Source: a virus
DNA: 25,746 bases
Direction: 5' to 3' (one strand)
Virus record (IMG/VR): IMGVR_UViG_3300048027_000297
Span: 1 to 25,746 of that record
Part shown: one piece after another, positions 1 through 25,326 of the stretch
How the letters are laid out: every line of letters begins with the position of its first letter
Position numbering within the stretch: the first letter of the stretch is position 1
The notes under the pieces: model-generated
Databases searched by the model: none
Seen by the model: only the letters and a program-made list of their open reading frames with translations
Told to the model about the DNA's origin: nothing
Position numbers and translations under genes: made by a program

Positions 1-790
1 CAACATCTTCAGTAGATGTTGCATTTGGTTTACTCTTTTCCGAAGTAGCACTTGTAGTTACTTCGGTTTGAGTTGATTCAACAACAACATCAGATTCTTT
101 GTCAACTGATTCTGCCGGAGGTGCATCTTCTTCAGATTCACCACTTACCCATTTTTCAAGAGCATCCTTTAATTCATCGTAACTAAGTTCTTGATAAATT
201 TCTGTAATCTCTGCTTGATTATTAGCAACATTATCAACGATATTCTTGTTTTCGGAGATGGGTGATGTATTTGGTTTAACACGAATATTGGTCTTTGGAA
301 ATGACCTTCCTGCTTCTTCAGCAGAAAGAAATTCAATAGTGATGTCTCTTCCACTAGTTGCATCTGTAATGTCTCCATAATCAGGATCTGCGATTACACT
401 CAAAAGTTCTTGATAAACTTCTTTACCAAATCCCCAAAATCTAACACCTTCTGCTTCTTCTCCACGAACGATGACAGGAACAAAAGTTCTCATTTTTGGC
501 ATAAGAGAACGACCCATTCTGTAATCATCTTTATCACCACTACGAGTCAACTTTTCAGCAAACTCAACGATTGGGTCTGGACGACCAAATGACTTTGGTG
601 ATAGGTATGTTCTGTTGTTAATTCCATAATGAAAATACAACTCAATAAATGGATTATCAGGTTGATGCTTATATGAAACAATGCGAACTTGTTGTTTACC
701 AGGTTGTGGTTTCCATTGGTAGTTTTTGCGATTATTTGTCTGTGACAAATTATTTAACTTTGCTTTAATTTTATCTAGGTCAATTGCCAT
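1..790 (-). CDS. gp32: T4 gp32-like single-stranded DNA-binding protein (C-terminus cut by window edge)
   Basis: Binds ssDNA cooperatively during replication, recombination and repair in T4-like phages. 263 codons are visible with no stop, so the gene continues left of the window; T4 gp32 is 301 residues. The N-terminus (MAIDLDKIKAKL, then a basic/aromatic stretch YQWKPQPGKQQVRIVSY) fits the self-association segment and start of the OB fold. RFWGFGKEVYQELL (about 117-130) and the DPDYGDITD stretch (135-143) match the core. From about residue 195 the sequence becomes acidic and Ser/Thr-rich, like the gp32 acidic tail that recruits partner proteins. The zinc-knuckle region reads SPKSFGRPDPIVE (64-76) with no cysteine, so the usual Zn ligands seem lost. 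The ATG at 790 has AAGGAAT upstream at good spacing, and a sigma70-like promoter lies at 833-861. Identity is firm; the Zn loss is read directly but compared from memory. Confidence 0.88.
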   Translation of the reverse strand, partial: MAIDLDKIKAKLNNLSQTNNRKNYQWKPQPGKQQVRIVSYKHQPDNPFIELYFHYGINNRTYLSPKSFGRPDPIVEFAEKLTRSGDKDDYRMGRSLMPKMRTFVPVIVRGEEAEGVRFWGFGKEVYQELLSVIADPDYGDITDATSGRDITIEFLSAEEAGRSFPKTNIRVKPNTSPISENKNIVDNVANNQAEITEIYQELSYDELKDALEKWVSGESEEDAPPAESVDKESDVVVESTQTEVTTSATSEKSKPNATSTEDV

Positions 791-1192: not shown

Positions 1193-1951
1193 TTAACTTT
1201 TTTTGACTATTCTTTCCTTAGAAATTTTGACTGCATTTGGATTGATGTCACACCCAATATACTTACGATTTAATTTGTTTGCTACATCTAAAGTAGTTCC
1301 ACTTCCACAATAAAAGTCTGCGACAACATCTCCTTCGTTACTACTTGCTTTTATTATTCTTTCTAAAATCTTTGGGTGCTTTTCACTATAATAATTTGTT
1401 GCTTTTTTTACTTTTAAACCAGATGGAATGTCATCCCATACATTAGTAGGAATCGTTCCAAGTTTTAATTTTTCTTCGGTGATATTTGGTCTGTCTTTTT
1501 TCTTACTAATGACAGACTTATATGGAATTCGTATGTCAAGATCATTAAACACAAAATTGTCTGACTTGGTATAAACTATTAAATAGTCATGTTTTTTTGC
1601 AAACTCACGTTTCCCACGACCTCCGATATTAAACTTAATTACAATCTGATTTCTAAAATTATTATATCCAAAAATTGAGTCCATTAAAATTCGCATCCAA
1701 TGCACGATTCTTAAATCCATTTGCAAGTATATTGTACCGTCTTCGGTTAGAACTCGTTTCATTTCATATAACCTCGGTATATAGTGACTATCTATCTCAT
1801 TTTTATTTGGATTTAAATCTGTATAGTCTTTGAACTTTTTACCAGTTCCGTACAACACATCACAATAAATAAGATTTATAGAACTTGAATCTAATTTATT
1901 TAATAGGTTGAGGTTATCGCAATGATGAATTAAATTTCCACAAGGTTTCAC
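1193..1951 (-). CDS. DNA methyltransferase, beta-type (N6-adenine/N4-cytosine family), aberrant DVLY catalytic motif
   Basis: 252-residue S-adenosylmethionine-dependent DNA amino-methyltransferase homologue. Motif order is that of the beta class: the catalytic motif IV comes first (LIYCDVLYGTGKKF, 28-40) and the cofactor motif I last (DFYCGSGTT, 212-220), followed by NRKYIGCDINPNAV. The typical approach to motif I, KHPKILERIIKASSNEGD, is present. The catalytic tetrapeptide, normally DPPY, DPPF or similar, is D31-V-L-Y34: Asp and the aromatic residue are kept, both prolines are gone. The start is GTG at 1951, one base after the SpoVR stop, so translation is probably coupled. No restriction endonuclease gene is adjacent, so it is best seen as an orphan methylase that could protect phage DNA or mark it. 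Whether it is active, and on which base, cannot be told from sequence. Confidence 0.85.
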   Translation of the reverse strand: MKPCGNLIHHCDNLNLLNKLDSSSINLIYCDVLYGTGKKFKDYTDLNPNKNEIDSHYIPRLYEMKRVLTEDGTIYLQMDLRIVHWMRILMDSIFGYNNFRNQIVIKFNIGGRGKREFAKKHDYLIVYTKSDNFVFNDLDIRIPYKSVISKKKDRPNITEEKLKLGTIPTNVWDDIPSGLKVKKATNYYSEKHPKILERIIKASSNEGDVVADFYCGSGTTLDVANKLNRKYIGCDINPNAVKISKERIVKKS

Positions 1952-1952
1952 C

Positions 1953-3518
1953 TCAAATTTTACTACCCTCGTATCTTTTCATTTCTCCGTTATTATATCG
2001 GTATCTAACTTCAACCTCAATGGTTTCTTTGTTTTCACCATAACCCTCTGACTCAACATCATATGTGAGTATATTAATTGGTTTTTTAATAATCTCATGT
2101 AAATATGCCATTGTACCTGTGGCATACTTAATATCCAAAGGTCTGCCCTCGAAATCGTGCCTTAATAAAATTTCTGTATTTTTGTATTTCATGTTTTCCA
2201 TGTATATAACAGGACGACCCATGTTGACATGACGATTTACAAGTTTTTCTTTTATTTTTTTATAGTCTTTACTAACAACTACATACTTGTTTGTTGTCTT
2301 ATCCAAGGCATACTCAAAATATTCATACTTTTCACAAAACTCTTTTGTAAAAAACTCATTTAAAAAAGTTACATCATTATAATTTTCACGAACCTCATAA
2401 ATTTTTTCACGACCAAGGTTGAGATGTTTGTTCCAATATCTTTTCTCATCACCTCTGTCGCAATTTTCATATTCTTTACCAAACTTACCCTTATTCCACC
2501 TATCTTCAATATCACGCAACAAAGTATTACCAAGTTTATAAGGATTATTCATATTGTACTTACCACCAAGAACTCCAGCATGATGCTTTGCATAATCAAA
2601 GATTCCTTCATCACCTGCGAAGTTACAAGTTGCCATGATATAAGAATCCCAATAACTGGCCCACCCTTCATTAAGAACCTTTGTCATTCCTTGGGGACGA
2701 TAATAAATTGATTCATCACGAATCATACTTAAAATATTTTGTTGCCAAGGTTCTAAACGACAATGATTAATAATCATAAGCATGATGTCACGTTCTGGTT
2801 GCAATGGAAATTTATTTTCTGCTAGTTTTTTTCGTTCTTCTCGTTCTTTTCTTTGTTTTTCTATATAGTGGGATGGATTTACATACTTATCCATATATTC
2901 CTTTGTATCAAGTCGTGTAACGTGTTCACGTGGTTGACGATCTTCAAAGTTAAACTTTGATGCTTTCTTTAAATTACTTTCACGATAACATAAAGAAGGG
3001 TCAATTAAATCATCAATCGCAAGAGCCGCATTCAAGAAGTCTTTAACTTTCTTTCTACCAAATCGATCCATATACATACGAATTTTATCACTATGATTTG
3101 CCATAACATTCATCATGTTACGGTTAGTATGCTTAAACATAATGTTATTCTTAAAAAAATCACTATGTGCGGTTGCGTGTGCAACCACTGTTAAGTTATC
3201 AACAATAGGATTGTTTCTTTGCAAATACATATAAGTCGGATCTGTGTTTACAACCATCTCATAAATCTTACCCATACCAGAATGATACTGATGGTGAAGT
3301 TGTTCAAATTGTTGTCCGAAATTAAAATGTGGATAACGAACAGGAAAACCACCATAAGCCGCAATCTCAACTATTTCGTCTGCATCGAATTCTTCTATAC
3401 ACAATGGATATGGATCAAGTCCATTATCGTAACAAGCCTGTAAACACTCAGGTATAAGAGCTGCCAATTCTGGACAAACTCCTTCATTTAAACTATCTAC
3501 TTCCCATGCAATTCCCAT
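1953..3518 (-). CDS. spoVR: SpoVR/YcgB-family protein
   Basis: 521 residues, close to the usual family length (about 500), and apparently intact. Family landmarks: HFNFGQQFEQLHHQY (64-78), the His-rich VVAHATAHSDFFKNN (111-125), the conserved NEGWASYW (283-290), and KYNMNNPYKLGNTLLRDIEDRW further on. The biochemical activity of SpoVR is not established; in Bacillus it is linked to spore cortex formation, and in enteric bacteria ycgB is co-regulated with yeaGH under stress and starvation. The ATG overlaps the stop of the YeaH-like gene by one base (TAATG), so the two are translationally coupled, and the methyltransferase follows after one base. Its place as third gene after PrkA and YeaH reproduces the bacterial association. 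The role in a phage is unknown; reprogramming or preserving a starved host cell is my inference. Confidence 0.95.
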   Translation of the reverse strand: MGIAWEVDSLNEGVCPELAALIPECLQACYDNGLDPYPLCIEEFDADEIVEIAAYGGFPVRYPHFNFGQQFEQLHHQYHSGMGKIYEMVVNTDPTYMYLQRNNPIVDNLTVVAHATAHSDFFKNNIMFKHTNRNMMNVMANHSDKIRMYMDRFGRKKVKDFLNAALAIDDLIDPSLCYRESNLKKASKFNFEDRQPREHVTRLDTKEYMDKYVNPSHYIEKQRKEREERKKLAENKFPLQPERDIMLMIINHCRLEPWQQNILSMIRDESIYYRPQGMTKVLNEGWASYWDSYIMATCNFAGDEGIFDYAKHHAGVLGGKYNMNNPYKLGNTLLRDIEDRWNKGKFGKEYENCDRGDEKRYWNKHLNLGREKIYEVRENYNDVTFLNEFFTKEFCEKYEYFEYALDKTTNKYVVVSKDYKKIKEKLVNRHVNMGRPVIYMENMKYKNTEILLRHDFEGRPLDIKYATGTMAYLHEIIKKPINILTYDVESEGYGENKETIEVEVRYRYNNGEMKRYEGSKI

Positions 3519-4672
3519 TAGAACGGTACCTCCTCATCTGCAGGTGTTAATAATTTTTGCAATGTTTTAAATACATCAGATGCAGAATCCATAGATGCAG
3601 TTACAATAGTTTTAGGGTCAAGGTCACCACTTGACAATTTTGCTTGAATTGCAGGTATAAAAGTTGCCCAACTTCGTATTGCTTTTACTTCTGTAATTCC
3701 AATTAAGTTGGCATAATCTTGCATCGTTTTTAAATATTCAACACATAAATCGTTATCAGAACCAAAATTTTCTCCGTCACTTAAATAAAATACATAGATA
3801 TTCCACTCGTTTAAAGGAAATGCTTTTTCTACAATATCGTTGACCAAATGAAATGCACTGCTAATTTGAGTTCCACCACCACTTTTATATTTGTAAAACT
3901 TTTCTTGATCTACTTCTTGGGCATGGTGATCGTGAACGATATATTTTACTTGAGTTTCTTGATAGAATCTTTGAACCCAATTATCTAAATACCAACACAA
4001 CTCACGAACCAATGCTCGTTTTTCTTCATCCATACTTGCAGATATGTCCGAAACAAAGAATATAGCCGCATTGGTATCTGGTACTTCTACGGAACTCCAA
4101 CTTCTAAATTCTTTATCGTCTTTAATTGGATAAAAGTTAGATAAATCGTTTTCATCATAATCACCGGTGGATATTAATCTTTTAAACGCATTTTTAAGAG
4201 TTTTTCTTTTATGCAATAAACTATTATTACCAACCTTAGCAATCCGATTCCATTTGATTTTTTCTTTTACCATTTCTCCATTGTCTTTTGGTTTTAGATT
4301 TGGTAATTGAAGTTCTTCTCCGATCATATCAAAATAGGCATCCATACTGATTCCGACATCTATTTCATGCCCATCACCTTCTCCTTCACCACCTTCACCT
4401 GGCTGAGATCCTTGTTCTCCTTGTTGTTGAGGTCCTTCTCCTACCTCATCACCTACATCTGCTTCACCGTTACCAATCCCACTCCCATCAGAAGGCTGTC
4501 CATATCGGAAACTTGGTAACTCTACATGAGGAACTTTTACTACAACAAAGTCCTTTCCTCTTCTGGAAATTCTTTGTCCACTCTTAATGTGCTTTTTAAG
4601 TTTATCGTCAACATTTCCTTTAACGATATCCCTATATTCACCGTGGTCTTCTCTGATTCTACGAGATGGCAT
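3518..4672 (-). CDS. yeaH: YeaH/DUF444-family protein with von Willebrand A-like domain
   Basis: 384 residues (E. coli YeaH is about 427). The N-terminus is basic (MPSRRIREDHGEYRDIVKG), as in the family. A Gly/Gln/Glu-rich low-complexity linker follows (about 58-104). The C-terminal half is a vWA-like domain with an intact metal-site signature: D209-x-S-x-S213 in FFVSDISASM, T268 in GGGTQISSAF, and D299 in FYLSDGENFG. vWA domains usually mediate metal-dependent protein binding, often with an AAA+ partner, which fits the adjacent PrkA ATPase/kinase. The ATG at 4672 has AAGGGA upstream at about 9 nt; the gene starts 20 nt after PrkA and overlaps SpoVR by one base. The molecular function of this family is poorly defined. 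Family membership is firm, the partner role is inference. Confidence 0.93.
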   Translation of the reverse strand: MPSRRIREDHGEYRDIVKGNVDDKLKKHIKSGQRISRRGKDFVVVKVPHVELPSFRYGQPSDGSGIGNGEADVGDEVGEGPQQQGEQGSQPGEGGEGEGDGHEIDVGISMDAYFDMIGEELQLPNLKPKDNGEMVKEKIKWNRIAKVGNNSLLHKRKTLKNAFKRLISTGDYDENDLSNFYPIKDDKEFRSWSSVEVPDTNAAIFFVSDISASMDEEKRALVRELCWYLDNWVQRFYQETQVKYIVHDHHAQEVDQEKFYKYKSGGGTQISSAFHLVNDIVEKAFPLNEWNIYVFYLSDGENFGSDNDLCVEYLKTMQDYANLIGITEVKAIRSWATFIPAIQAKLSSGDLDPKTIVTASMDSASDVFKTLQKLLTPADEEVPF

Positions 4673-4692
4673 AATGATGTATCCCTTGACTA

Positions 4693-6792
4693 TTAATCTT
4701 CGTCTTCGTCCGCATCACCTCTTGCAAAAATACTTCCAACATATGTAAGAACATCAGACGCACTATCTTCATCATATCCAAATGAAACAATAAGTCGTTG
4801 CTTCAATGCATCAATTTTTTCAAGAAGTTCTTTGTCAACAACTGTTGCAGTATCTTGTGCAAGAGCAGACAACTTGATGCTATCTTTGGTATCTTCAAAC
4901 AACTTTTTTTCAAGTGCTTTGTAAAGTTGCTCGTTTGAGTCATACTTAAACTCTTTACCTTTAGCGGCAAGTCCACCCATATAGTTCATAATTTCTCTAC
5001 GAAAATCGTCTTTCATTCCAGCAGAAATGCCTATTTTTTCTTCAATACTTCGCATTAAAGTTTCATTTGCTACTTCTTCTTTTCCAGTTACAGGATTTGT
5101 AACTTTTTCATCTTGAATGTAAGCAACAATATTATCAATGTAGTTTGTACAAAGTGCTTTTATTGCTTCTTCACTACTACTAAGTGCCTGTTGAACTTCA
5201 CGTTTTACGATTCTATCATATTCTTTTTCAACTGATTCGAGTCTTTCGAGCATTGTCTTTTTATTGTCTTCGGACTGAAATCCATTATAACTTTTAAGTC
5301 CTTCACGGATTTGTGCAAACAACATAAATGGATTTAAACTTTTAGCACCCATCCTTGGATTAACGATTGCATTGGAAAACTGATTTTGAATAAACCGTGC
5401 AGAAACACCACCATACAATCCTTCTTTTGGTGACTCTTCTTGCATTTCTTTTACGTGTTCATCTGTGAATCCGTGTACACTTTGACCATTATATAATTTT
5501 GCTTTTTGAATAATGCTCATATCTTGCTTTGTACTTTCTTCCAAACGACTAACAACCGCAAAAAGGGCAGCCAAATAAGTTGTATGAGGAGCAATGTGCT
5601 TATTTACGGTACTTGTATTATAAAAGTGATCATAAATCTTCCTTTCTTCATCAATTTTCAAAAGATACGGAATATCAATTTTAATTGTTCTATCACGGAG
5701 TGCTTCCATAAATTTATTGTTAGTTAACTTTTCAAACTCAGCATTATTGGTATGCCCAAGAATAACTTCATCAATTGGTACCTGATTAAAACGACGTGGT
5801 TTGACACGATGCTCTTGGGTTGCACCAAGTAAATCGTACAAAAATTCAGTTTGTAACTTAAGAATCTCTTGAAATTCAATCAAACCACGATTAGATACTA
5901 GGAATTCTCCGTCAAAATCAAATGCACGGGGGTCACTTTCACTACCATATTCTGCTAACTTACGATAATTAATATCACCAGTAAGTTCGGTTGCATCTTG
6001 TGATTTCTCATCCTTTGGTTGGAATGTTCCGATACCTACACGATTCTTTTCCGACAAAACAACTCTTCTAACAACAATGTGATCAAGAACCTTGCGGTAA
6101 TCCCCCCCATGCATTTCCATTAATTGGTTGTAATAAAATTCATTAACAGGATTTAATGCTCCATCTAATTTTAATTTATATGCATCCTCAGATAAATTTT
6201 TATTCAAATTAGATATAATTTTATTACGAACTTTTCTTGGTAAAAGTTTTAATGGCTCTTCATTCATCGGACAATTGACAAGAACATCGTTACCATCTTT
6301 ATCAGAAACCCTCCAACTAAAGGAATATAAAGCACCTTCATCGGTTTTTGTATATTCTTCTAATCCTTTTTTCAATGCTGTAACGATTGTAGACTTGCTA
6401 CTACCAACGGGTCCGTGAAGAAGAATAACACGTCTTTCTGGACCATAGTGACGACTTGCACTTTTAAGAATATCCATGAACTCCATTAAACTCTCTTCTA
6501 AACCATAAATTGAAATATCTCCAAGGCCTTCAAAAAATTTATATTTTACATACTTTCTCTTGCAATATGTGAACTCGTCAGTTCCATGAGAAATTACCAT
6601 ATCATATAATCGTTGATATGAATTTCGTGCAATTGTGGGACTCTCTTCCACCAATTTAATATAATCCCAAAAGGTTCCTGTCCAATTTAAAGATTTGTAT
6701 GTTTCAATTGCATCATCATTGTCACATCTTATCAATGATTCAAGTGCAGAATTTTCCGTGTTAGTTTCTTTTTGTCGTTTTTTATTTTCCAT
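4693..6792 (-). CDS. prkA: PrkA/YeaG-type AAA+ serine protein kinase
   Basis: 699 residues from the chosen start; bacterial PrkA is about 640-690. An AAA+ domain comes first with Walker A GPVGSSKST (about residue 130). Family blocks follow: ELTGDINYRKLAEYGSESDP, then SNRGLIEFQEILK, LYDLLGATQEH, DEVILGHTNNAEF, MEALRDRTIKIDIPY. The last third is the helical PrkA C-terminal domain. In bacteria PrkA/YeaG is reported as a serine kinase (and, in Bacillus, with AAA+ protease-like properties) acting in starvation, stationary phase and sporulation. An upstream in-frame ATG at 6798 is possible, but AAGG (6801-6804) lies only 2 nt from it and 8 nt from the ATG at 6792, so I prefer 6792. It is the first gene of the PrkA-YeaH-SpoVR set. 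All nucleotide-binding residues I can check are intact. Confidence 0.95.
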   Translation of the reverse strand: MENKKRQKETNTENSALESLIRCDNDDAIETYKSLNWTGTFWDYIKLVEESPTIARNSYQRLYDMVISHGTDEFTYCKRKYVKYKFFEGLGDISIYGLEESLMEFMDILKSASRHYGPERRVILLHGPVGSSKSTIVTALKKGLEEYTKTDEGALYSFSWRVSDKDGNDVLVNCPMNEEPLKLLPRKVRNKIISNLNKNLSEDAYKLKLDGALNPVNEFYYNQLMEMHGGDYRKVLDHIVVRRVVLSEKNRVGIGTFQPKDEKSQDATELTGDINYRKLAEYGSESDPRAFDFDGEFLVSNRGLIEFQEILKLQTEFLYDLLGATQEHRVKPRRFNQVPIDEVILGHTNNAEFEKLTNNKFMEALRDRTIKIDIPYLLKIDEERKIYDHFYNTSTVNKHIAPHTTYLAALFAVVSRLEESTKQDMSIIQKAKLYNGQSVHGFTDEHVKEMQEESPKEGLYGGVSARFIQNQFSNAIVNPRMGAKSLNPFMLFAQIREGLKSYNGFQSEDNKKTMLERLESVEKEYDRIVKREVQQALSSSEEAIKALCTNYIDNIVAYIQDEKVTNPVTGKEEVANETLMRSIEEKIGISAGMKDDFRREIMNYMGGLAAKGKEFKYDSNEQLYKALEKKLFEDTKDSIKLSALAQDTATVVDKELLEKIDALKQRLIVSFGYDEDSASDVLTYVGSIFARGDADEDED

Positions 6793-6800
6793 AACCATTA

Positions 6801-7247: not shown

Positions 7248-7258
7248 TTATATTACAG

Positions 7259-7266: not shown

Positions 7267-7278
7267 GCAAAAAAAAAC

Positions 7279-8601: not shown

Positions 8602-8609
8602 TTAGCACG

Positions 8610-12056: not shown

Positions 12057-12353
12057 TTAAGTCCTTGAATTTATTTTATTATGGTCGATTAATATTTCAC
12101 CATAATCTCTTGGTATTCTGATTTGTGTGCCTGGTTCTATATACATAGTACCCTTTACATTATTCGCAGCTGCGATTATCCACCAGTAAGTAGGATTTTC
12201 ATAAAATTTATATGATAAATGATCAAGACGAGTTCTTTCTACTATAACCAAATATAAATCAGTTGATCTTTTTTTTATTCTTGGTAAAAGAGTCGTTTGG
12301 AGTGCTTTTTTACCTGAGTTTAAAGTATTAAGTTTTGTTGTTTTGTATCTCAT
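12057..12353 (-). CDS. gp53: baseplate wedge protein gp53-like with LysM fold
   Basis: 98 residues. The core DHLSYKFYENPTYWWIIAAANN (a single aromatic-rich helix pair) followed by IEPGTQIRIPRDYGEIL is the LysM/gpX-like fold seen in T4 gp53 and in tail proteins of other myoviruses, where the pattern is D-L-Y-yG-WW-ia-N...G--i-iP. Such small proteins link the hub and wedge in the baseplate. It is half the length of T4 gp53 (196), so it may be the minimal LysM unit. The ATG overlaps the stop of the upstream baseplate gene by one base (TAATG), and the hub gene follows 2 nt after its stop, so the three are a coupled baseplate set. Confidence 0.8.
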   Translation of the reverse strand: MRYKTTKLNTLNSGKKALQTTLLPRIKKRSTDLYLVIVERTRLDHLSYKFYENPTYWWIIAAANNVKGTMYIEPGTQIRIPRDYGEILIDHNKINSRT

Positions 12354-14254: not shown

Positions 14255-17200
14255 TTACGAATTTGCTATTGATGCAAGTGTTTTACTCACCTTTTTACCA
14301 TCAAGATGAACGGCAATTCCACCACTTTTCATCAATTGAATTAGTTCAATTAATCTAGTTTCAGTGCCGGATGTGTCTACGGTCGTTGAATTATCTGTCT
14401 GATTATTGTTTGTAACCGAACTTATAGTTTCCACCACACTTGCGTTTGTGCCCGTTCCGATTGATCCCATTTCCTGTGTGGTAATTGGTGAAGCATTTGA
14501 TTGTCTAAGTTGATTTTCAATTTCTCTCTCTTGAATCAATTCTAAATCAATCATTGATCTATTTAGTTTTGGATTAAATTGGTGATAATCAGAAGGTCTG
14601 GCAGAGCTCCCCAACCCTTTCATTCTATTTGCGAGCATTTCATGTCGCAATTCAGAGGTTGCATTTGATGTGCTAATCATTGTGGATTTAAGTTTTTCAA
14701 ATTTATCATTAAGTTCGGAAGAAGAAAATTCTTTCACAAAATCAATACCAAACTCATCCTGATCCATTATTGCGTTTGCTTTGTTTTTATCAATAAAATT
14801 ATTATAGTTTTCGTGTGCTATATCCTTATTATCCTGTAAAGTTTGTAATTCTTTTAATTTATCCTCACCTCCAATTTTGCCAACAAAGCTTGAAAATGTA
14901 TATCCCTTTTGTGCTGAGTCAGTTACATTCATTTTCTGCGATTGTTCTTTTTCAATTGATTGTTGAACAATTGTTTTATTAACAGTATTGTTATCAGTAG
15001 ATTTCTTTACAAGTTCGTCAGAAACACTTTCCGTTTTTCCTTTGAAAGCAAACACCATCTTTCCTAAAAACCCTAAATCACTCCATACTTTCCCAAAACG
15101 TATTACAGCCTCGGTAAGTGAGTCAAATCCTGATATTGCAGTTTCATACACCTCTGGATTTGAAATACACTCGATGAATGATTTTACAGGACTTGTTCCT
15201 ATTTGGTTCATCACTAGTAGATTTTGTGAAATAGACATTATCGCAGATGATAAATTTTTAAGGTTATCTACACTTTCGGATTTAATCAACGATAGAGGTT
15301 CTAGTAGATTTTTTATTTTTACAGATATACCATCCACTTCACCTACCCCAAGACCACTTGCAAATTCTTTAATAGAATTTAATGCGTCAGGTATTGATCT
15401 AAGATTTTCACCTATATTTCCTATATTTTGTAAAGATGATGTAAATTTTATAATTTCTTGCAATGGGTTTAAATTTGATTGATCTATTTTATTTGTACCA
15501 AATGCAAAATCTGAAATTGCATTTATACCCGATGTACCAAACCCCACAACTGAATCTATGAATCCACCTCCACCTCCAGCTGCAATAGATAATTCATTAA
15601 ACGCACCTCCCATGTCACGAATTGCACTTGAAGCATCTCGTATGGCATCACTTTGCTTAGAAATTTTTAGCATATTTGTGATTACTGCTTCAAGACCTGT
15701 TCCAAGATTTTTTAATGGTTCTCCTGCATCTTTCGCCGCATCCCCAAGTTTTCCAATTGAATATGCCATAATCCCAACGGAAATTACACCTGCCGTTACG
15801 AGAGGTAAAGCAACACCAAGACCTGCCATTGCCACTCCAAGAAGACCTATCTTTCCGATATCCGAGAATGTAAGTTTTTGAAGTGATTCAACCACTCCTG
15901 TGAAAACTTTAGACAACTCAGAGATTGCAGGAAGTATAGAACTTAAACCCATTCCAAATAATTGCAATGCAAGTCCTAATGCCCCAATTGCAATTGAACC
16001 TGCAATAATTGGAAGTGCAAACATTCCCATCATACCAGCTACAACTGCAAAAGCACCTAGTGCTACAACCCCTGTTAACACACTTTTAAAATCAATGTTT
16101 GCAAATTTAGTAAGTGAGTCAGCAAATGGATTCAAAGCAAGTCCTAGTGCTCCTATTGCAATTGACCCAAGTAAAATAGGCACAATGAATTTACCAATAA
16201 GACTAGCAGCCACAGCAAGAACAGATAAAGCACCCAACCCATAAAATACATTTTCCCACGGTACATCTGCAAATTGTTTAAATCCATGTGCAAGTGGAAT
16301 TAAAGATAAACTAAATATTCCCATTACAATTGCACCCATAATTAAACTTCCCTTTGCAGAGTCCAAAATTTTAGACACAATTAACATAGTAGTTGATACT
16401 CCAATCAACGCAGTAACTCCTTTTGCCATATCGTCCCACTCTACATTTGCAAATTGCTGAAATGCTTTAGCAGCTATAAACATTGATCCAGCAAGCACAA
16501 CAAGTGCTAATCCTGCTTGTAATACACCTCTTGTTGATATTCTACCAATCTGTTGGACAAATGATTGTATACCACGTCCAATTCCACGTAATAATCCTGC
16601 GATACCCTCTCCAATACCTTTAAACATTCCTGAAATACCTGTTCCAAGTGAAGTAACTGCTCGGCCAATCCCACTTGCAATATTACTCAACGCAGTCCCA
16701 ATTCCTGATGCCAGATTGGATACTGATCTTCCAATGGAACTAAAAATGCTTTGTACAGAAGATCCAATACTTTCAAATAACTTAGAAACTGTACCACCCA
16801 ATCCACCGATTAAGTTTCTAATACCATTAACCAATCCACTGACTCCTTTACCTAAAAATCCAAATAAACTGCCACCGAGAGTAAACAATCCTTTGAAAAT
16901 TCTGGGAATTAATAATCCAAAAAATAAAAAAGCAGCTGTTATTTTTGCTTGCCACTCAAACATAGTACTAAGTGGTTTTGTTAAATCTTTAATTACATCT
17001 ACAACTGGTGATAAAAATTCTTTAATTACTTTAATTGCATCTCCTATCAATTTAAATGGCCATAAAATATAACCAACTAAATCTAATATTGTACCTAAAA
17101 TTGGAACTAAAACTTCCATACCAACCTCGATTACGGGTAATAGTTTTTCACCAAGTTTTATCATTAATGAATTAAATTTATTTTTAAGTTGATTCATTTT

Positions 17201-19198
17201 TTCTTGTTGAATTTGCTCTTCAAGTTGTGCTTTCATTCTGTCAGCTCCATCTTTAGCATCACCGTCTCTTAATTTTTTAAGTTCTTCTTGAAGAGCAATT
17301 GCCCTATCACCATATTTTGCTTCAAAAGCTGCTCTGTCTTTTTCAGTCGCAGCCATCTTCATTAGATTTTCAACGGATGTACCCATTGCTTCGGCAGCTG
17401 CACGTTTTTGAAAAACATTCATATTCTCCAAACCACCCATTTGTTGTAACAATCTTAATTGCTCTTTTGCTACCCCCTCTGCATCACCAGCAAATGAAAG
17501 TTGACGAAGTTTATGCATACTAATATGCCCACCCAACAAACTACTAAGTTTCATTTCTTTGTTAATAGAACTTTCAAAATCAAGCATAGTCTCCATTGTA
17601 CTTGCAATATCATCAATTGTTGTTCCGAGTTTTCTTGCTTGAACCGCAGAAGCTGCCAACGCACCTGGTGTTTTTCCCATGAATATTAAAGTATCTTCAC
17701 TTGCAGATGCAACATCACTCATTACCTCATCTGCATTTACACCTGCTAAATCAGACGCACTTGCTACTGCCATCACTAAATTAGAAACAGTAGCATCCGA
17801 ATCTGCTCCTAGCATTTTAAATTTTTTGGCTGCTCCTGCTAAATTTTCATTTGATATACCAAGTTGTGTACTAAGTAAAGTAACGGATTGCAATGTCTTT
17901 GGCATCAGTTCCAATCCAAAGTTTCCAAATTGAGTGGCCAGTGCTTGTGCCGATGCACTTGCGTCCTCTAACGAGACCCCCATATGAGAAAATTCTACAT
18001 TCAGTCTTTGAACTTCATCAAAAATTGCGGAAGTGCTTTGTAGTGTTCCACCCAAATTTTTTCGCAACTCTCTTGCAGATTCTTCAAGTTCTGTGAATCG
18101 TTTAAATGCTAATGTAAGTAAAGCAGTTAGTGCGGCTATCAATAAAAATGGTCCACTTAATATTGATTTTAGTGCAGCCCCAATGCCTTGTAAATTACCC
18201 ATGAAGTGACTTAAACCTGCTTGTATTCCACCCATTGCACTTCCTGTATCTTGTGCGTGTTTTAGTCCGACCTTCAATGCACCTGCAAATGCTTCTTTTG
18301 CAATATCCGATACTTCTTCTAAAGGTCCCGTTGCATATTTTGCTAACATACCACCTATCAATGGAATTGATTCCAACGAACCTAATATACTATCTTTTAT
18401 TCCATCAAACTTACCCATGACCTCATCACTAACACCACCATATGTCTTGATGAATTCTTCCATATTTTTACCATGCAATTGAAGTTCTTCGTTTAATTCT
18501 TTATTTAAACTTAATAGTTTATTGGTTTCTTGAAATACCGCACCTGTGGTGGTTCTTAAATCATCTTGATACTGAGTCATTGTGGACATATTATTTATGC
18601 TTACTCGTTGACCTTCTATAAAATCGTCGTTGAATTTATTCAATGAACCCATTACTCCTAAGTTATTAGCAAGGCCTGCGTTTAAGTTAAGTAGTTCATT
18701 CTTTGATTGCTCTAATTTTTCTTTTTGCGTAGCATATGCAGAAGTTCCTTCGTTTAATAATGACAAGCGTGCAGCTTCTATTTCTACGAGTTTTGCAGCT
18801 TCTGGTATTTTTTCAGTTTCTAATGTGCTTATACTACCAGCAACATCTAATATTTTATGTTCAACTTCAAGTTTTTGTTGATCTAACATTGCCAAAGCTT
18901 CGGTTTGATCAGATGCAGTTGACATTTCAATTCTAAAGTCACGTGTCAAATCTTTAAATTTTTCTAAAGAACGTCCAGATGCAACTAAACTTTGTTGCAT
19001 TTTTTCAATGTTGTCAATTCCTGTTATATCTAAATTTGATTCAGATTGAGCATTTTTTAAATTATCTACAAACTGAGAACTTAGATCACCCACATCCTTT
19101 AAATCAGGTAACAAATCAGATGCAATTGATTTTTGTATATCTTGTGTAAAAGAACCAACGTCCTTTATTATATTTAAATCTTCGGGATCAAGTGCCAC
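14255..19198 (-). CDS. tail tape measure protein
   Basis: 1647 residues, the largest protein in the window. It sets tail length by filling the growing tube, then exits on infection. Evidence: long helical N-terminus (about 1-330), several hydrophobic stretches (for example GPFLLIAALTALLTLAF), a run of 11-residue Gly-Ile-Gly repeats (DNA 16553-16804), a hydrophobic triplicated unit of about 60 residues (DNA about 15950-16460), and a C-terminal VHLDGKKVSKTLASIA typical of tape measures. Start: GTG at 19198 with AGGAG 9 nt upstream; the ribosome site overlaps the previous stop. It follows the gp26-type chaperone pair and precedes the baseplate genes, the expected order. It is far longer than T4 gp29 (590 residues), implying a long tail or added domains. 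Confidence 0.92.
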   Translation of the reverse strand: MALDPEDLNIIKDVGSFTQDIQKSIASDLLPDLKDVGDLSSQFVDNLKNAQSESNLDITGIDNIEKMQQSLVASGRSLEKFKDLTRDFRIEMSTASDQTEALAMLDQQKLEVEHKILDVAGSISTLETEKIPEAAKLVEIEAARLSLLNEGTSAYATQKEKLEQSKNELLNLNAGLANNLGVMGSLNKFNDDFIEGQRVSINNMSTMTQYQDDLRTTTGAVFQETNKLLSLNKELNEELQLHGKNMEEFIKTYGGVSDEVMGKFDGIKDSILGSLESIPLIGGMLAKYATGPLEEVSDIAKEAFAGALKVGLKHAQDTGSAMGGIQAGLSHFMGNLQGIGAALKSILSGPFLLIAALTALLTLAFKRFTELEESARELRKNLGGTLQSTSAIFDEVQRLNVEFSHMGVSLEDASASAQALATQFGNFGLELMPKTLQSVTLLSTQLGISNENLAGAAKKFKMLGADSDATVSNLVMAVASASDLAGVNADEVMSDVASASEDTLIFMGKTPGALAASAVQARKLGTTIDDIASTMETMLDFESSINKEMKLSSLLGGHISMHKLRQLSFAGDAEGVAKEQLRLLQQMGGLENMNVFQKRAAAEAMGTSVENLMKMAATEKDRAAFEAKYGDRAIALQEELKKLRDGDAKDGADRMKAQLEEQIQQEKMNQLKNKFNSLMIKLGEKLLPVIEVGMEVLVPILGTILDLVGYILWPFKLIGDAIKVIKEFLSPVVDVIKDLTKPLSTMFEWQAKITAAFLFFGLLIPRIFKGLFTLGGSLFGFLGKGVSGLVNGIRNLIGGLGGTVSKLFESIGSSVQSIFSSIGRSVSNLASGIGTALSNIASGIGRAVTSLGTGISGMFKGIGEGIAGLLRGIGRGIQSFVQQIGRISTRGVLQAGLALVVLAGSMFIAAKAFQQFANVEWDDMAKGVTALIGVSTTMLIVSKILDSAKGSLIMGAIVMGIFSLSLIPLAHGFKQFADVPWENVFYGLGALSVLAVAASLIGKFIVPILLGSIAIGALGLALNPFADSLTKFANIDFKSVLTGVVALGAFAVVAGMMGMFALPIIAGSIAIGALGLALQLFGMGLSSILPAISELSKVFTGVVESLQKLTFSDIGKIGLLGVAMAGLGVALPLVTAGVISVGIMAYSIGKLGDAAKDAGEPLKNLGTGLEAVITNMLKISKQSDAIRDASSAIRDMGGAFNELSIAAGGGGGFIDSVVGFGTSGINAISDFAFGTNKIDQSNLNPLQEIIKFTSSLQNIGNIGENLRSIPDALNSIKEFASGLGVGEVDGISVKIKNLLEPLSLIKSESVDNLKNLSSAIMSISQNLLVMNQIGTSPVKSFIECISNPEVYETAISGFDSLTEAVIRFGKVWSDLGFLGKMVFAFKGKTESVSDELVKKSTDNNTVNKTIVQQSIEKEQSQKMNVTDSAQKGYTFSSFVGKIGGEDKLKELQTLQDNKDIAHENYNNFIDKNKANAIMDQDEFGIDFVKEFSSSELNDKFEKLKSTMISTSNATSELRHEMLANRMKGLGSSARPSDYHQFNPKLNRSMIDLELIQEREIENQLRQSNASPITTQEMGSIGTGTNASVVETISSVTNNNQTDNSTTVDTSGTETRLIELIQLMKSGGIAVHLDGKKVSKTLASIANS
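15950..16460 (-). repeat. three diverged copies of a ~60-residue hydrophobic unit inside the tape measure
   Basis: The protein units start near QFANVEWDD, QFADVPWEN and KFANIDFKS and each runs into a Gly/Ala-rich hydrophobic helix; the last two contain the identical block GSIAIGALGLAL. The shared hexamer GCAAAT (plus strand) marks each copy at 16449, 16269 and 16101, giving spacings of 180 and 168 bp. This is an in-frame tandem duplication. Confidence 0.7.
16553..16804 (-). repeat. 11-residue (33-bp) Gly-Ile-Gly repeat array in the tape measure
   Basis: Seven units of 11 residues: GLGGTVSKLFE, SIGSSVQSIFS, SIGRSVSNLAS, GIGTALSNIAS, GIGRAVTSLGT, then a 7-residue unit GISGMFK, then GIGEGIAGLLR and GIGRGIQSFVQ (the first is the most diverged). 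The hendecad period suits an extended helical rod; the lone heptad is in register with a coiled-coil phase change. Confidence 0.75.
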
Positions 19199-19528: not shown

Positions 19529-19807
19529 CTATTTGTAAGAACGACCCCCCTTTGAAAAGGACCGGGTACTTGGTTTTGAAGCAGGTTTTGAATTAGTTTT
19601 TGCTTTTGCTTGGGCTGCTTTGATTTCTTCGTTTTCTTTATTTTTGAGTTCCACCAATTTCTTGGCATAAAACCTTCTAAGATATATTGGAAGATTATAT
19701 GCAATTGACTGATTAAAAGCACCTTGACTATGATAACAGAGATTAAAAATCTCTTCGTGGAGTTGTATTTTATACTCCTGTGGAAGGGTAAAAAAAGTCG
19801 ACCCCAA
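19529..19807 (-). CDS. overlapping tail assembly chaperone-like extension (TTG start or frameshift product)
   Basis: About 92 residues in the +1/-2 frame of the gp26-type gene, overlapping its last 38 bases. The frame is open only from 19816 (TGA at 19817-19819) and holds no ATG or GTG start; the only near-start is TTG at 19807, with a poorly spaced AAAGGA. FTLPQEYKIQLHEEIFNL then YNLPIYLRRFYAKKL resembles the second part of tail assembly chaperones in myoviruses (mPixlRxfYxxkL), after which the C-terminus becomes Lys/Ser/Pro-rich. Like lambda G/GT, it could be made as a C-terminal extension of the upstream protein by ribosomal frameshifting at a T7 run in the overlap. Coding is likely; start mechanism uncertain. 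Confidence 0.7.
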   Translation of the reverse strand: MGSTFFTLPQEYKIQLHEEIFNLCYHSQGAFNQSIAYNLPIYLRRFYAKKLVELKNKENEEIKAAQAKAKTNSKPASKPSTRSFSKGGRSYK

Positions 19808-20732
19808 GTGGGATCGTCATCCTTTCAGTATATCCGGTCTCTTCGGACTCAAAGTTAAATGTCATATCAAGATCAGGTGTATTTTCTCTTATGTGTTCTC
19901 TTAAAGCAAGAGAATCACGTGCAAGTAGTTCTTTATCAACAAAACTTTTAATTCTTGCACGATCTTCATTTCCGTCTAATGACTTAATTACATATTTCAA
20001 ACGAGTAGTAATTTCAGTAGTTTCATTTTTATTTTTTGAAAACTTCTTCATGCTTTTCATTTCCATATCAATTGCTTGTTCATCTCCATGAGTTAACAAA
20101 CTATAATGTACGGTTCTTTTACTATTAGGAAGTTCAAATTGAAATAGATTCAACCCACGTTCGTACTGCTCAAAATTAAATTCTTTTGGTTCAAGTTTGG
20201 CCAAGTCGATTGTATCTTCCACATCTTCATTTGTTGAAGGGTCTTTAAACTTGATTCCATAATCTTTTCCATATGCTAAAATACGTGATGCGATGAATAT
20301 AGCATTCTTATCTCCAACCAAAATATCGTCCATCTTTACATTCGGTGTAATAATAAGTGCTTCAAGTAACTTATCTAACACAACACCCTTCTTGATAAGA
20401 TTTTGACTTGTAAGTATATCTTCTTCTTTTGCAGTCATGTATTTTATATCAATCTTACCACGTGATAGTGGTGAATTTTGTGGATAAAACCACCCCTGAC
20501 TTGGTAGATCAATTACTTCACTTGGATATTCAAATGACTGAACTTGATCAGTTTGTGTTGAAAACTGAGCAGTTGGTGCAGGTGCAGGTGCAGTTTTTTC
20601 TGCCTGTGTAGTTTCTTGTGTAGTTTCTTGTGTAGTTGTTGACTGAGAAATCTTTCTTGCTTCAGCTGCATCTCTTTCAAGTTGTTCACGAACTTGTTGT
20701 GGTATCTCTATATTATTATCTTCGTTTGCCAT
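19770..20732 (-). CDS. gp26: T4 gp26-like baseplate hub/tail assembly protein (T4 baseplate family)
   Basis: 320 residues. The N-terminal 65 are low complexity (Thr/Gln/Glu, then Ala-Pro repeats) and probably disordered. From about 75 the T4-baseplate family signature is clear: IDLPSQGWFYPQNSPLSRGK, then IDIKYMTAKEEDILTSQNLI (95-114), then a KMDDILVGDKNAIFIASRIL block. In T4, gp26 is needed for hub assembly; related proteins in other phages are regarded as tape-measure chaperones. The ATG at 20732 has AAAGG 8 nt upstream. The next reading frame overlaps its 3' end and lacks an ATG, reminiscent of G/GT chaperone pairs. The end is ...STGV-TAA at 19770. Family assignment is firm, the chaperone role is inference. 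Confidence 0.9.
   Translation of the reverse strand: MANEDNNIEIPQQVREQLERDAAEARKISQSTTTQETTQETTQAEKTAPAPAPTAQFSTQTDQVQSFEYPSEVIDLPSQGWFYPQNSPLSRGKIDIKYMTAKEEDILTSQNLIKKGVVLDKLLEALIITPNVKMDDILVGDKNAIFIASRILAYGKDYGIKFKDPSTNEDVEDTIDLAKLEPKEFNFEQYERGLNLFQFELPNSKRTVHYSLLTHGDEQAIDMEMKSMKKFSKNKNETTEITTRLKYVIKSLDGNEDRARIKSFVDKELLARDSLALREHIRENTPDLDMTFNFESEETGYTERMTIPLGVDFFYPSTGV
19790..19796 (-). other. candidate programmed frameshift site (T7 run) in the gp26/GT-like overlap
   Basis: The coding strand has seven T in frame as GAC TTT TTT TAC, inside the overlap of the two frames. A +1 move or a -2 slip on the run would join the 320-residue frame to the downstream frame (reading on as ACC CTT CCA). 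A -1 slip would not. No stimulatory structure was verified. Confidence 0.4.
20575..20592 (-). repeat. 6-bp tandem repeat (3 copies) coding Ala-Pro
   Basis: GGTGCA occurs three times in tandem on the plus strand, encoding the APAPAP stretch in the disordered N-terminus of the gp26-like protein. Confidence 0.8.
20605..20637 (-). repeat. 12-bp tandem repeat (2.75 copies) in the gp26-like gene
   Basis: TGTGTAGTTTCT is repeated at 20605 and 20617 with a partial third copy from 20629, encoding Thr-Gln-Glu-Thr units. Its length is a multiple of three, so copy changes would keep the frame. Confidence 0.85.
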
Positions 20733-21249: not shown

Positions 21250-21741
21250 TTAGTATTGAAGGATTGCGTAATCGTATGCAATATCTAAATCAACAGTAGC
21301 AACATCACCTGTTGTCCAATCTAATGGAGAGAATGTTGTACCTGCAACGAACGCACCCTTAATTGTCCATTCTTCGACATAGTCACCGACCGGTCCAAGA
21401 ACAACAATTGTTAAATCTTTTTTGTAGAAGTCTGCGTAACCATTTCTACCTGTTACAGACTCATGTGAAAGACGAACCCATTCCATAGCTGCTTGAGCCG
21501 CACTTGGAACGATTGGGTCATACATACCCATGCTGATGTTATTCCACTCTGCTTTACCTGCACGAACTTTACGTTTGATATTGATGTGGTCTAATGTGTT
21601 AACATCGATTGTAATGTTTGGTCTATCGACATTTTTAATTAAATATGCTGGAACACCGTCCATATACATAATAAAACGATTTGCTGTTTTAGGTTCAAAT
21701 GCCGTAAAAAACATTTCTTGTGTTTCTACTACTTGTGCCAT
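21250..21741 (-). CDS. gp19: tail tube protein, T4 gp19-like
   Basis: 163 residues, the same length as T4 gp19. It polymerises into the inner tube of the contractile tail. Recognisable features: KTANRFIMYMDGVPAYLIKN near the N-terminus, NTLDHINIKRKVRAGKAEWN, MGMYDPIVPSAAQAAMEWVR, and a C-terminal FVAGTTFSPLDWTTGD followed by an alternating strand region. The ATG at 21741 follows GGAGAAAT. It has two ATATTTAT octamers upstream and a strong terminator downstream, so it looks like its own high-level transcription unit, fitting a protein needed in many copies. It is separated from the sheath by a membrane-protein gene, which is unusual for 18-19 order. Confidence 0.95.
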   Translation of the reverse strand: MAQVVETQEMFFTAFEPKTANRFIMYMDGVPAYLIKNVDRPNITIDVNTLDHINIKRKVRAGKAEWNNISMGMYDPIVPSAAQAAMEWVRLSHESVTGRNGYADFYKKDLTIVVLGPVGDYVEEWTIKGAFVAGTTFSPLDWTTGDVATVDLDIAYDYAILQY

Positions 21742-22647: not shown

Positions 22648-25326
22648 TTAACCTTCAAAACTTGCACCGGTCGATTGCAATGTGAAATCAAGAACGATGA
22701 ATTCAACTGCACGGGCAGGTTGTAAGAAAATCTGTCCATAAAGAATGTTTCTGTCAATCAAGTCCGGAGTGTTGTTAGACTCATCCATAATTACACGAAA
22801 AGCATATAGACCATGTCTTTGTTGGACATTTTCTAAGTATGGATTAACAATACTCAAGAATCTTTGACGTGTTGCAGTAACATTTTGTTCAAAAATTAAG
22901 TATCTTGCAGAACTTGCAATAAACTTCTTAACAGTAATAAGCAAACGACGTACATTAACTCTATCCAACGCACTTGAACGACGTTGAAGAGTTTTTTGAC
23001 CGAATGCCACGATACCTTGACCAGGGAAAGCCGCAATAGGATTAACTTTACCTTCATACAATGTATCCCTTTCTGCAAATGTAAGACGATCCATTACTGA
23101 TACTGCTTGTTCAAGACCACCACGATTCAAACCCGCAGGTGCGAACCACTCTGCAGCCACCTTGTCATTAGCCGCATACACAGATGCCATCAACGAACTT
23201 GGTGGGAATGGCATTAACTTGTTTGTCGCAGGATCAATAATTTTAACCCAAGGGTAATAAGTAGCTGCATAATTTGTATCAATTGTAGAAGCTTCGGCAA
23301 CTGCATCGTCAACACGACCTGGTTGGTCTTTTGCACTTACGCAATCAAGAATGTAAAAGCAATCTTCTCGGTTTTCACAAAGATCAACACCACGATTTAC
23401 AACTGATCTATGAAGATCAAGACTTAAACCAGGTGTCACGATAAGGTTGATATCAAACTCGTCTTGGTTACTAAGAGCAGCGAATGCACTCATATATGCG
23501 ATTGTACCATTTGATGTTCGTTTAGAACAATCCATACCTTGAACATTTGTTGCAGTAATGTCTTTACCAAGATTAATTGGATGTGTTGGAGCATGACCAT
23601 CAAATCCACCTTGAAATCCTACCACAAATCTTCTAAGTTTTGCAATTTCTGTTTCTTGTGTTAAAGAAGGATTCGTATCGATAGCATCAACATAAAATGT
23701 TTCACGTTCTCCGTCAACTTCTTCTACATAACTACCAGGACGATCCATATAATATCCTTCACCCGAATCATCAGAACTTCTTGGAAGTGGTGCGAATAAC
23801 TCAACGGTATCTTTGGCAGACATAGGAAGTTCTAAAATCCCATCAGGAGAATCTTGATTAAAGACTGCACCGTTATAGTATCTTCCAGGATTTCTTCCAT
23901 ATTGAGAAGCATGACTATAAATTGGATTTGGAACTGAAACTCCTGCGATTGGAGCCATGTATGAACCATGACCATATGGCATTGCCTGTGATGGGGCAAC
24001 ACTGTCTGGGTTCATCTCTACACGAATCCAATTACTTGAATTTGCGTAGTCACCGTGATCAGTAAGTTTTCCTTTGTTATCAATAGTTGTGAAACGATCA
24101 CCACATACACGTGGTAAATAACGTGGTGAATTTGGATCAAGGGTTACATTATCATATGATTCAATAATATTTTGATTTTTATCGTTATCGGCAAATCCAC
24201 GCACCAATAAATCAAATGTACCGTAATCAGAACCCTGCACGGAACCAGGAGTACGGATATTAGAAATCGCAATTTTTAATTCACGATTTGCAGATGTACC
24301 CATGTTACGAGTCCATACCTTAAAAAGATCATATCTACGACCACTTATTTCCTGTGACTGAATCCACGGTGTGTTTGCAGGACGACATGAATACGATCCA
24401 GTACCCATACCAAACGGAACTGCATCCCCTTTAAAATTTAATGAACCTTCTGTTTCATCGGCATCGATAATATCACCACCAATTTCTGTTGTGCATTCAA
24501 TTCTATATTTTACACCTGCATACAAATTATTATAAACACGTGCCTGTGCATTCTCGAAGTAAGCATGAAAATATGCAGGTTCTATATTTTTCTTTGGTGC
24601 TCTTCCAAAAATATTTTGAAGACTATTTGGATCACGTGGGTCGATTGAAAATACATAATCACTTGCAATTAAATTTCCATTTATATCTGTTTTTACATAT
24701 ATAACTTCTTGATCCTCTAGTGTACCAGGATTTCCGTCTTCATCAACAGTAGTTCTAAGGTGAAGTGAAGTTTGAAAGTTAGACTCAGCATTTTCTTCTC
24801 CTGTATCAGGATCAATAGAAAGAACATCGTGATAAACTAAATTTGAACTTGGGTCTGTGAATGAACCTAAGAATCCACTATCATCTTCAACTGGTTCACT
24901 TGAATTTGATCTTTGGTATAGTGTGTTTGCCAAAATACCGATCACGGTTTCATCGCCTACGTTTACATCACACGAACCACTTCCATAAGTTTCTTCGTAT
25001 TTTGCACAATCAACTTCTTCTACTTTTGCATAAATTACCAAACCGTTTTTCTGCTCGTATCCTCCGAGAGATCCTGTTCTCACAATAGTAACAACTCCTT
25101 GGTGTTGTAAATACTCTCTTGCGGTAAATGGTTGATAATATGTTCCTTCTGGTGCACCAAATAAATCGACTAAGTCTCCTTGATTACGCACAACGGTAGG
25201 TGCAAACGCAGGACCTCGTGTAAAAGGACCCACAACGGCTCCTCCTATTTGTTGAATTCCTTGCGTTAAAAAGGTCTGATCGATTTCGTTGGTGAATACT
25301 GCTGGACTTACAATTCTTTCTGCCAT
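22648..25326 (-). CDS. gp18: tail sheath protein, T4 gp18-like
   Basis: 892 residues, forming the contractile outer layer of the tail. The N-terminus (SPAVFTNEIDQTFL, then IGGAVVGPFTRGPAFAPTVV) and C-terminus (NILYGQIFLQPARAVEFIVL followed by DFTLQSTGASFEG) are the conserved sheath ends; GLNRGGLEQAV and PIAAFPGQGIVAFGQKTLQR near the C-terminal domain are also typical. It is longer than T4 gp18 (659), the extra length lying in the central, surface-exposed part (about 90-560), rich in Asp, Gly and Asn. The ATG at 25326 follows AGGAGAA at 9 nt. An octamer lies 60 nt upstream and a strong terminator follows, so it is probably a separate, strongly expressed unit. Confidence 0.96.
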   Translation of the reverse strand: MAERIVSPAVFTNEIDQTFLTQGIQQIGGAVVGPFTRGPAFAPTVVRNQGDLVDLFGAPEGTYYQPFTAREYLQHQGVVTIVRTGSLGGYEQKNGLVIYAKVEEVDCAKYEETYGSGSCDVNVGDETVIGILANTLYQRSNSSEPVEDDSGFLGSFTDPSSNLVYHDVLSIDPDTGEENAESNFQTSLHLRTTVDEDGNPGTLEDQEVIYVKTDINGNLIASDYVFSIDPRDPNSLQNIFGRAPKKNIEPAYFHAYFENAQARVYNNLYAGVKYRIECTTEIGGDIIDADETEGSLNFKGDAVPFGMGTGSYSCRPANTPWIQSQEISGRRYDLFKVWTRNMGTSANRELKIAISNIRTPGSVQGSDYGTFDLLVRGFADNDKNQNIIESYDNVTLDPNSPRYLPRVCGDRFTTIDNKGKLTDHGDYANSSNWIRVEMNPDSVAPSQAMPYGHGSYMAPIAGVSVPNPIYSHASQYGRNPGRYYNGAVFNQDSPDGILELPMSAKDTVELFAPLPRSSDDSGEGYYMDRPGSYVEEVDGERETFYVDAIDTNPSLTQETEIAKLRRFVVGFQGGFDGHAPTHPINLGKDITATNVQGMDCSKRTSNGTIAYMSAFAALSNQDEFDINLIVTPGLSLDLHRSVVNRGVDLCENREDCFYILDCVSAKDQPGRVDDAVAEASTIDTNYAATYYPWVKIIDPATNKLMPFPPSSLMASVYAANDKVAAEWFAPAGLNRGGLEQAVSVMDRLTFAERDTLYEGKVNPIAAFPGQGIVAFGQKTLQRRSSALDRVNVRRLLITVKKFIASSARYLIFEQNVTATRQRFLSIVNPYLENVQQRHGLYAFRVIMDESNNTPDLIDRNILYGQIFLQPARAVEFIVLDFTLQSTGASFEG

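Follow-up and report, generated by a model that had tools for sequence, protein, structure and literature searches.

A PrkA-DUF444-SpoVR gene block inherited and kept under purifying selection in large phages

The trio and its occurrence in phages and bacteria

The IMG/VR virus record IMGVR_UViG_3300048027_000297, a stretch of 25,746 bases that was analysed in full and is referred to here as the window, carries three genes in tandem on the minus strand, encoding PrkA, DUF444 and SpoVR proteins. PrkA (4693..6798, 701 aa) is the first gene of the block and contains an AAA+ domain and a PrkA C-terminal domain. It is followed, after a gap of 20 nt, by the gene for DUF444, a YeaH/YhbH-type von Willebrand factor type A (vWA) protein (3518..4672, 384 aa), the stop codon of which overlaps SpoVR (1953..3518, 521 aa) by 1 nt. 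Each gene was full-length according to the list of open reading frames (ORFs), the translations and the curated Pfam cut-offs, which were exceeded by PrkA (AAA_PrkA, PF08298, 5.5e-85, 286 bits; PrkA C-terminal domain, PF06798, 1e-70, 238.8 bits, cut-off 25), DUF444 (PF04285, 4.9e-67, 227.3 bits, cut-off 27), and SpoVR (PF04293, 1.8e-107, 360 bits, cut-off 27). The original prediction, made from the letters alone, of a complete trio of near full-length genes coupled by a 20-nt gap and an overlap was thus confirmed; its span also stood, except that PrkA starts at 6798, the earlier start of 6792 being the methionine at residue 3. Within a lineage made up of phages only, the trio has been passed on as a single block, and strong purifying selection maintains it. 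The best overall explanation, which is put forward tentatively, is that it represents a phage copy of a bacterial starvation operon, in which an AAA+/vWA pair would act on SpoVR in a host-directed role.

The trio is not a one-off, and is carried as a block by many other large phages. A tblastn search of the window proteins against 50,697 phage records matched PrkA in 16 records (11 Thermus, four uncultured, and one Enterobacter); 17 records had a match to DUF444 and 14 to SpoVR. Scans of IMG/VR confirmed 161 relatives with the window PrkA protein and 39 with SpoVR, and further relatives included at least 572 for PrkA (with a large-phage profile), 191 for SpoVR, and 160 for DUF444. Five IMG/VR scans, in each of which the best loci (80 or fewer) were kept, shared contigs, and their counts are therefore not random samples. 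Before counting, loci whose anchor protein duplicated another (15, 5, 18, 10, and 14 in the five scans) were removed, and the last scan contributed 72 new loci after eight that had already been seen were left out. The full trio was present in 42/42, 19/19, 29/30, 44/44, and 45/45 viral loci flanked by 5 kb or more on each side, and in 18/23, 8/13, 21/32, 23/26, and 10/13 loci with shorter flanks. In bacteria, where the 80 loci closest to the window PrkA were counted (the best 80 of at least 541 relatives), it was complete in 36 of the 49 loci with 5 kb or more at each end and in 18 of the 31 with shorter flanks. The co-occurrence that the original prediction proposed to look for in phages was therefore nearly complete in the phage loci examined whose flanks reached 5 kb.

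Every complete viral trio of the IMG/VR scans, defined by the presence of the ORF ends and by set minimum lengths, had the order PrkA-DUF444-SpoVR on one strand. These trios came from 302 viral loci, of which 155 were distinct by PrkA protein, forming 73 clusters at 85% identity. An extra piece was present in four rows (L012, L122, L386, and L430), the first three of which represent one contig with split genes. At least 14 of the matched contigs were longer than 200 kb, with a maximum of 511 kb, and jumbo phages are therefore prominent; the near relatives of the window were located on contigs of up to 170 kb.

Common history and purifying selection

Trees of the three genes were each built from 87 sequences, including eight of the window clade, six of the large-phage type, three from Thermus phages, 26 of the 44 other-phage clusters, and 44 of the 48 bacterial trios. 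The same groups emerged from all three trees, each explained by the minimum number of changes, except for the other-phage group, which required two changes in each tree (the odd row in the PrkA tree was L065). The window clade consisted of phages only (support 100, 99, and 100 in the three trees), and the support for the bacterial group was modest (84, 90, and 84). The SpoVR tree was built with a simpler model, and the branches of the Thermus phages, which were long, were flagged as unsafe. From gene to gene, distances were correlated both in the other-phage clade (r 0.75-0.84) and in bacteria (r 0.75-0.78). The trees and the correlated distances indicate that the three genes travelled together, in agreement with the phage-specific clades of shared history that the original prediction proposed to look for.

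Selection was estimated from 24 distinct members with an identity of at least 80% as the ratio of nonsynonymous to synonymous substitution rates (dN/dS), with pairs of dS outside 0.1-1.5 dropped. The median dN/dS was 0.073 for PrkA (245/276 pairs), 0.060 for DUF444 (237/276), and 0.062 for SpoVR (252/276). Neighboring genes of the same phages served as yardsticks: the gp32-like gene (0.056, 192/210 pairs) has a value close to those of the trio, and the methyltransferase gene a higher one (0.124, 188/276 pairs). The three ORFs upstream of PrkA (window 6837-9050), also used as yardsticks, evolve fast, with values of 0.26 (96/276 pairs), 0.395 (205/276), and 0.646 (64/105).

Intein-like inserts were found at conserved motifs of some phage SpoVRs, at several places of which two were recurrent, and of two PrkAs. 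They start with Cys (the start of the insert in the L302 PrkA was not displayed), and the displayed ends are His-Asn. If these inserts splice, the SpoVR and PrkA proteins that host them must be needed whole. SpoVR inserts were located at the first site in L053, L086, L087, L365, L412, L426, L432, and L435, after NEG.A in L055, L057, L062, L413, L426, L432, and L435, and at other sites in L009 and L252, and three SpoVRs carried two inserts each; the PrkA inserts were those of L297 and L302. The original prediction had argued for selection on a working unit, which is supported by the near-complete co-occurrence, the agreement among the trees, the low dN/dS, and the intein-like inserts at conserved motifs.

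That the trio is a recent passenger of host origin without a maintained role, whether captured from bacteria or created by a chimeric contig, is very improbable and has been largely refuted. The window PrkA shares up to 55% identity with bacterial PrkAs among the matches listed, mainly from Myxococcota, Planctomycetota, and Bdellovibrionota (by title). Its identity to the other main phage clade is 48-50%, and the large-phage and Thermus types share 25-33% with it. This pattern would suit a recent capture; however, the phage and bacterial sides are separate in all three trees, with support of 99-100 for the window clade, and judged by these sequence comparisons the window PrkA and the bacterial and other phage PrkAs represent an old split, which may run in either direction. 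In a near relative (L012:8127-10712), the DUF444 and SpoVR frames are split by several scattered single-base indels that reflect sequencing error or decay, which would also fit a passenger, as would the record of Enterobacter phage LAU1 (MN688132.1, L007:1-3308), which opens with yeaG-yeaH and has no SpoVR in the stretch read; the latter genes are probably the bacterial flank of a prophage. The low dN/dS of the trio points the other way, and recent capture under relaxed selection is rejected on the basis of dN/dS and of the trees with the bacterial loci sampled. A chimeric or host contig is rejected because of the same block with the same neighbors being found again in near relatives from other metagenomes, which also shows that the trio is not a chance arrangement. 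Neither recent independent acquisition under relaxed selection nor bacterial flanks, which the original prediction had named as findings that would speak against it, were thus observed.

Flanking genes, predicted folds and a candidate mechanism

The flanks of the trio are of phage origin, with contractile-tail genes upstream and a methyltransferase gene and a gp32-like gene downstream, all on the minus strand. The upstream genes encode a gp25-type baseplate wedge protein (12057..12353), a tail tape measure protein (14255..19198), a tail tube protein (21250..21741), and a tail sheath protein (22648..25326), each matched in PHROG, and a T4_baseplate-type baseplate hub protein (19770..20732; T4_baseplate, 3.4e-7). 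Downstream, an N6/N4 DNA methyltransferase gene (1193..1951; PHROG and Pfam) adjoins SpoVR and, together with an ORF of 76 aa with no match, separates it from the gene for a gp32-like single-strand DNA-binding protein (2..790; PHROG, 1.4e-20; Pfam gp32, 3e-12), which runs off the window end. The earlier placement of the trio between tail genes and gp32 was therefore right as to phage flanks on both sides, although the methyltransferase gene beside SpoVR had gone unmentioned. The description of the phage as T4-like is backed only in part by the gp32-like, wedge, and T4_baseplate matches, as these are of weak to moderate strength and none of the 20 window ORFs scanned against PHROGs matched a capsid gene. 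One of the three fast-evolving ORFs upstream of PrkA (7279-8601, 440 aa) weakly matches DNA polymerase A, barely below the Pfam cut-off, which is odd amid tail genes.

The main rival to a host-directed role, which is possible but rather unlikely, is that the trio serves as a chaperone in virion assembly or maturation, in which an AAA+/vWA pair and a peptidase-like partner would help to build the tail or process structural proteins. In the window, the trio comes immediately after the tail and baseplate genes and shares their strand, as would be expected of such a chaperone; in other lineages, however, the neighbors are genes for DNA polymerase III alpha, HldE-like, GTP cyclohydrolase, IMP dehydrogenase, or NeuB proteins. 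Other jumbo phages are reported to have a MoxR-vWA pair with a fused metallopeptidase, and an archaeal virus to need a MoxR-vWA pair for its tail (PMC7824862), whereas the same operon is reported to function in bacteria, where there is no virion (PMC3188799). In 21 of the 73 viral clusters (e.g., L302:9705-10397, L052, and L356), SpoVR is followed on its own strand, at a distance of 54-2367 nt, by a gene for a ClpP-like protease, which is also in line with a role in virion assembly, but none adjoins the trio in the window. Two more clusters have a ClpP-like gene elsewhere. In addition, two small genes, one with a zinc ribbon, lie directly upstream of PrkA in 29 and 31 of the 44 clusters of the other main phage clade (e.g., L356:4024-4359 and L060:5209-5529). 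A constant neighbor of the trio indicating its function was sought across the phage clades, and none was found.

As predicted originally, the key motifs of all three proteins are intact. In PrkA, the Walker A motif GPVGSSKST (residues 129-137; 6388..6414, minus strand) contains G129, K135, and S136, which are invariant in 52/52 aligned sequences. The protein scored 212.4 bits against the NCBI equivalog PRK15455 (YeaG type; cut-off 576), and, judged by these models, it is a PrkA-family protein rather than a YeaG equivalog. In a second-look structure alignment of the predicted models (predicted local distance difference test score, pLDDT, 87.1 for SpoVR and 82.7 for PrkA), the first nine ranks for PrkA were occupied by NorQ (seven entries) and CbbQ (two entries), with Z 12.6-14.1 (e.g., 9qh4, Z 14.1, root-mean-square deviation 4.0 over 238 residues). 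A solved PrkA relative of 692 aa (PDB 9xip, 9xiq, and 9xir; 30 chains in three entries) matches residues 30-693 of the window PrkA and did not turn up in the fold searches.

A genuine serine kinase role for PrkA, in which it would phosphorylate proteins of the infected host while DUF444 served as regulator and SpoVR as substrate, is improbable. The family name and reports of kinase activity for YeaG and Bacillus subtilis PrkA (cited in PMC3188799) would favor such a role, whereas purified B. anthracis PrkA is reported to be inactive as a kinase (PMC13001217). The K426A variant of E. coli YeaG has been described as catalytically defective, with the recovery phenotype abolished (PMC10954441); however, the column of K426 is occupied by Asn472 in the window PrkA and by Lys in only 8 of 58 aligned PrkAs. 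Lys432, which is invariant in 52/52 aligned sequences, represents a residual possibility. Kinase activity as the main activity of PrkA is thus disfavored, and the kinase part of the original prediction was not supported. The best mechanism for PrkA, suggested by the predicted model, would instead be that of a NorQ/CbbQ-like AAA+ motor.

DUF444 scored 336 of the 388 bits needed for its NCBI equivalog. Its metal ion-dependent adhesion site (MIDAS) motif DISAS (residues 209-213; 4034..4048, minus strand) is completed by T268 and D299, and D209, S211, S213, T268, and D299 are each invariant in 64/64 aligned sequences. The partner of NorQ is reported to be the MIDAS-bearing vWA protein NorD, involved in metal insertion (PMC13036017). 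The AAA+/vWA reading arises because both NorQ and CbbQ have vWA proteins as partners and DUF444 belongs to this type, and we infer that DUF444 is the vWA partner of PrkA. The idea of an AAA+ motor with a vWA adaptor, which the original prediction had raised, was strengthened in this respect.

SpoVR scored 150 of the 679 bits needed for its NCBI equivalog. Its His-rich block is present, as described originally. The motif HATAH (H114 and H118; 3165..3179, minus strand) lies in a long predicted helix (105-124) and NEGWA (E284; 2658..2672, minus strand) in another (280-297); these two helices carry HxxxH and NEG[WF]A, and H114, H118, and E284 are invariant in 69/69 aligned sequences. This pair resembles the HExxH...NEGFA motif of M1 peptidases, although E. 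coli PepN itself reads HEYFH and KEG. The position of the zincin catalytic Glu is Ala or Val in 200/200 classified SpoVR sequences (3 of 203 were unclassified). The top four structures in the second look were all zincins, i.e., IRAP (M1), two M32 carboxypeptidases, and BepA (M48), with Z 8.1, 7.5, 6.7, and 5.4. Foldseek against BFVD gave one match, the nameless A0A3Q8HYQ4 (1.3e-11). This weak evidence suggests that SpoVR may resemble a zincin without the catalytic Glu, in which H..H and NEG[WF]A are candidate metal ligands.

In the tentatively favored phage copy of the starvation operon, PrkA would form a NorQ/CbbQ-type AAA+ ring that spends ATP to twist or pull DUF444, which in turn would grip a client through the metal of its MIDAS. 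SpoVR would be the dedicated client, a metal-site protein into which the PrkA-DUF444 pair may load the metal or whose state it may switch. Such an assembly would act on the infected host in the way that the bacterial operon acts in starved cells, and bring the cell into a condition favorable for a large phage. YeaG and YeaH have been reported to quiesce metabolism in nitrogen-starved E. coli, acting as a metabolic brake (PMC10954441), and the host-directed role is proposed by analogy with this brake. A narrower version, in which an inherited large-phage machine imposes this starvation brake through the AAA+/vWA pair on a SpoVR client with a zincin fold and metal ligands but no catalytic Glu, is doubtful; if true, it would also explain the role of the operon in bacteria.

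Several observations weigh against this mechanism. For PrkA, rank 10 in the second look was Vps4 (Z 12.5), only 1.6 Z below the top; a sigma-54 activator and Lon outranked NorQ in Foldseek; Pfam gave the PrkA families and a sub-threshold 2-Hacid_dh match and no MoxR-type family; and B. anthracis PrkA has been placed in AAA+ clade III (PMC13001217). For SpoVR, the best Z of 8.1 is at a level that the tool itself describes as possibly common, and Foldseek in PDB returned nothing at E <= 0.001. A sequence link to M1 aminopeptidases was rejected, as hhalign of the SpoVR query (A6) with E. coli PepN gave a probability of 0.6% over an unrelated stretch (A6 with YcgB, 100%). HxxxxH, with one extra residue between the His residues, was found in 41/155 viral SpoVRs and in E. 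coli YcgB. Furthermore, the neighbors of the trio vary by phage lineage and give no pointer to the host, and LR756502, an exception among the named records, has SpoVR approximately 245 kb from PrkA.

Comparison with known systems

The bacterial operon prkA(yeaG)-DUF444(yeaH/yhbH)-spoVR(ycgB) is widespread, and phages that keep the trio together under strong selection suggest that it is one functional unit that matters in infection. Deletion of the trio from a phage would provide a handle on the long-open question of the mechanism of the operon, and the likeness of PrkA to NorQ, together with the possible metal site of SpoVR, would open an unassigned function to concrete assays. In viruses of the Pacific oxygen-minimum zone, spoVR is reported as the most abundant sporulation gene and taken as a spore gene (PMC8940887); the phage trio gives an alternative reading of viral spoVR.

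Precedent exists in phages at the gene level, and the bacterial three-gene operon has been published (PMC3188799). The trio genes are annotated singly in Thermus phages such as phiYS40, in agreement with the phage prkA annotations mentioned in the original prediction, and in Ralstonia jumbo phage RsoM2USA SpoVR is reported as ORF28 and PrkA as ORF30 (PMC8504454). Neither SpoVR nor PrkA is mentioned by name in PMC7824862, and none of four terms searched occur in the huge-phage paper PMC7162821. The open-access literature searched contained no description of the three genes as a module of phages, no report of their phage-only clades, and no interpretation of PrkA as NorQ-like; this absence is weak.

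The trio of Rhizobium etli (CH02817-CH02815) has the same families, order, and strand as that of the window; it is reported to form a single operon, as confirmed by reverse transcription PCR, and to be induced by guanosine tetraphosphate (ppGpp) (PMC3188799). In contrast to the bacterial operon, the proteins of the window group in a separate clade of phages and score below the NCBI equivalog cut-offs. In E. coli K-12, ycgB is located apart from yeaGH, unlike in the window. Thermus phages phiYS40, TMA, phiLo, MN1, and Lalka (serine kinase, conserved protein, and SpoVR) have the three families close together on the same strand, as in the window, but the order in phiYS40, MN1, and phiLo is DUF444-SpoVR-(one ORF or none)-PrkA, and their PrkA shares 30-33% identity with that of the window. 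The uncultured huge phage LR756511 (595 kb) has the trio in the order of the window (identity of 48% for PrkA, 34% for DUF444, and 43% for SpoVR), but is a member of the other main phage clade. Group 2.2 jumbo phages are reported to carry AAA+, vWA, and metallopeptidase-like parts, as here, in a MoxR-vWA-metallopeptidase pair proposed for virion assembly, but in two proteins, the peptidase being fused to the vWA protein (PMC7824862). NorQ-NorD and CbbQ-CbbO, pairs of a MoxR AAA+ protein and a MIDAS-bearing vWA partner, provide the nearest solved folds of the AAA+ part of the window PrkA in the second look, but not in the Foldseek ranking, whereas the window PrkA has no sequence-family match to them, carries an extra C-terminal domain, and would act on a different client.

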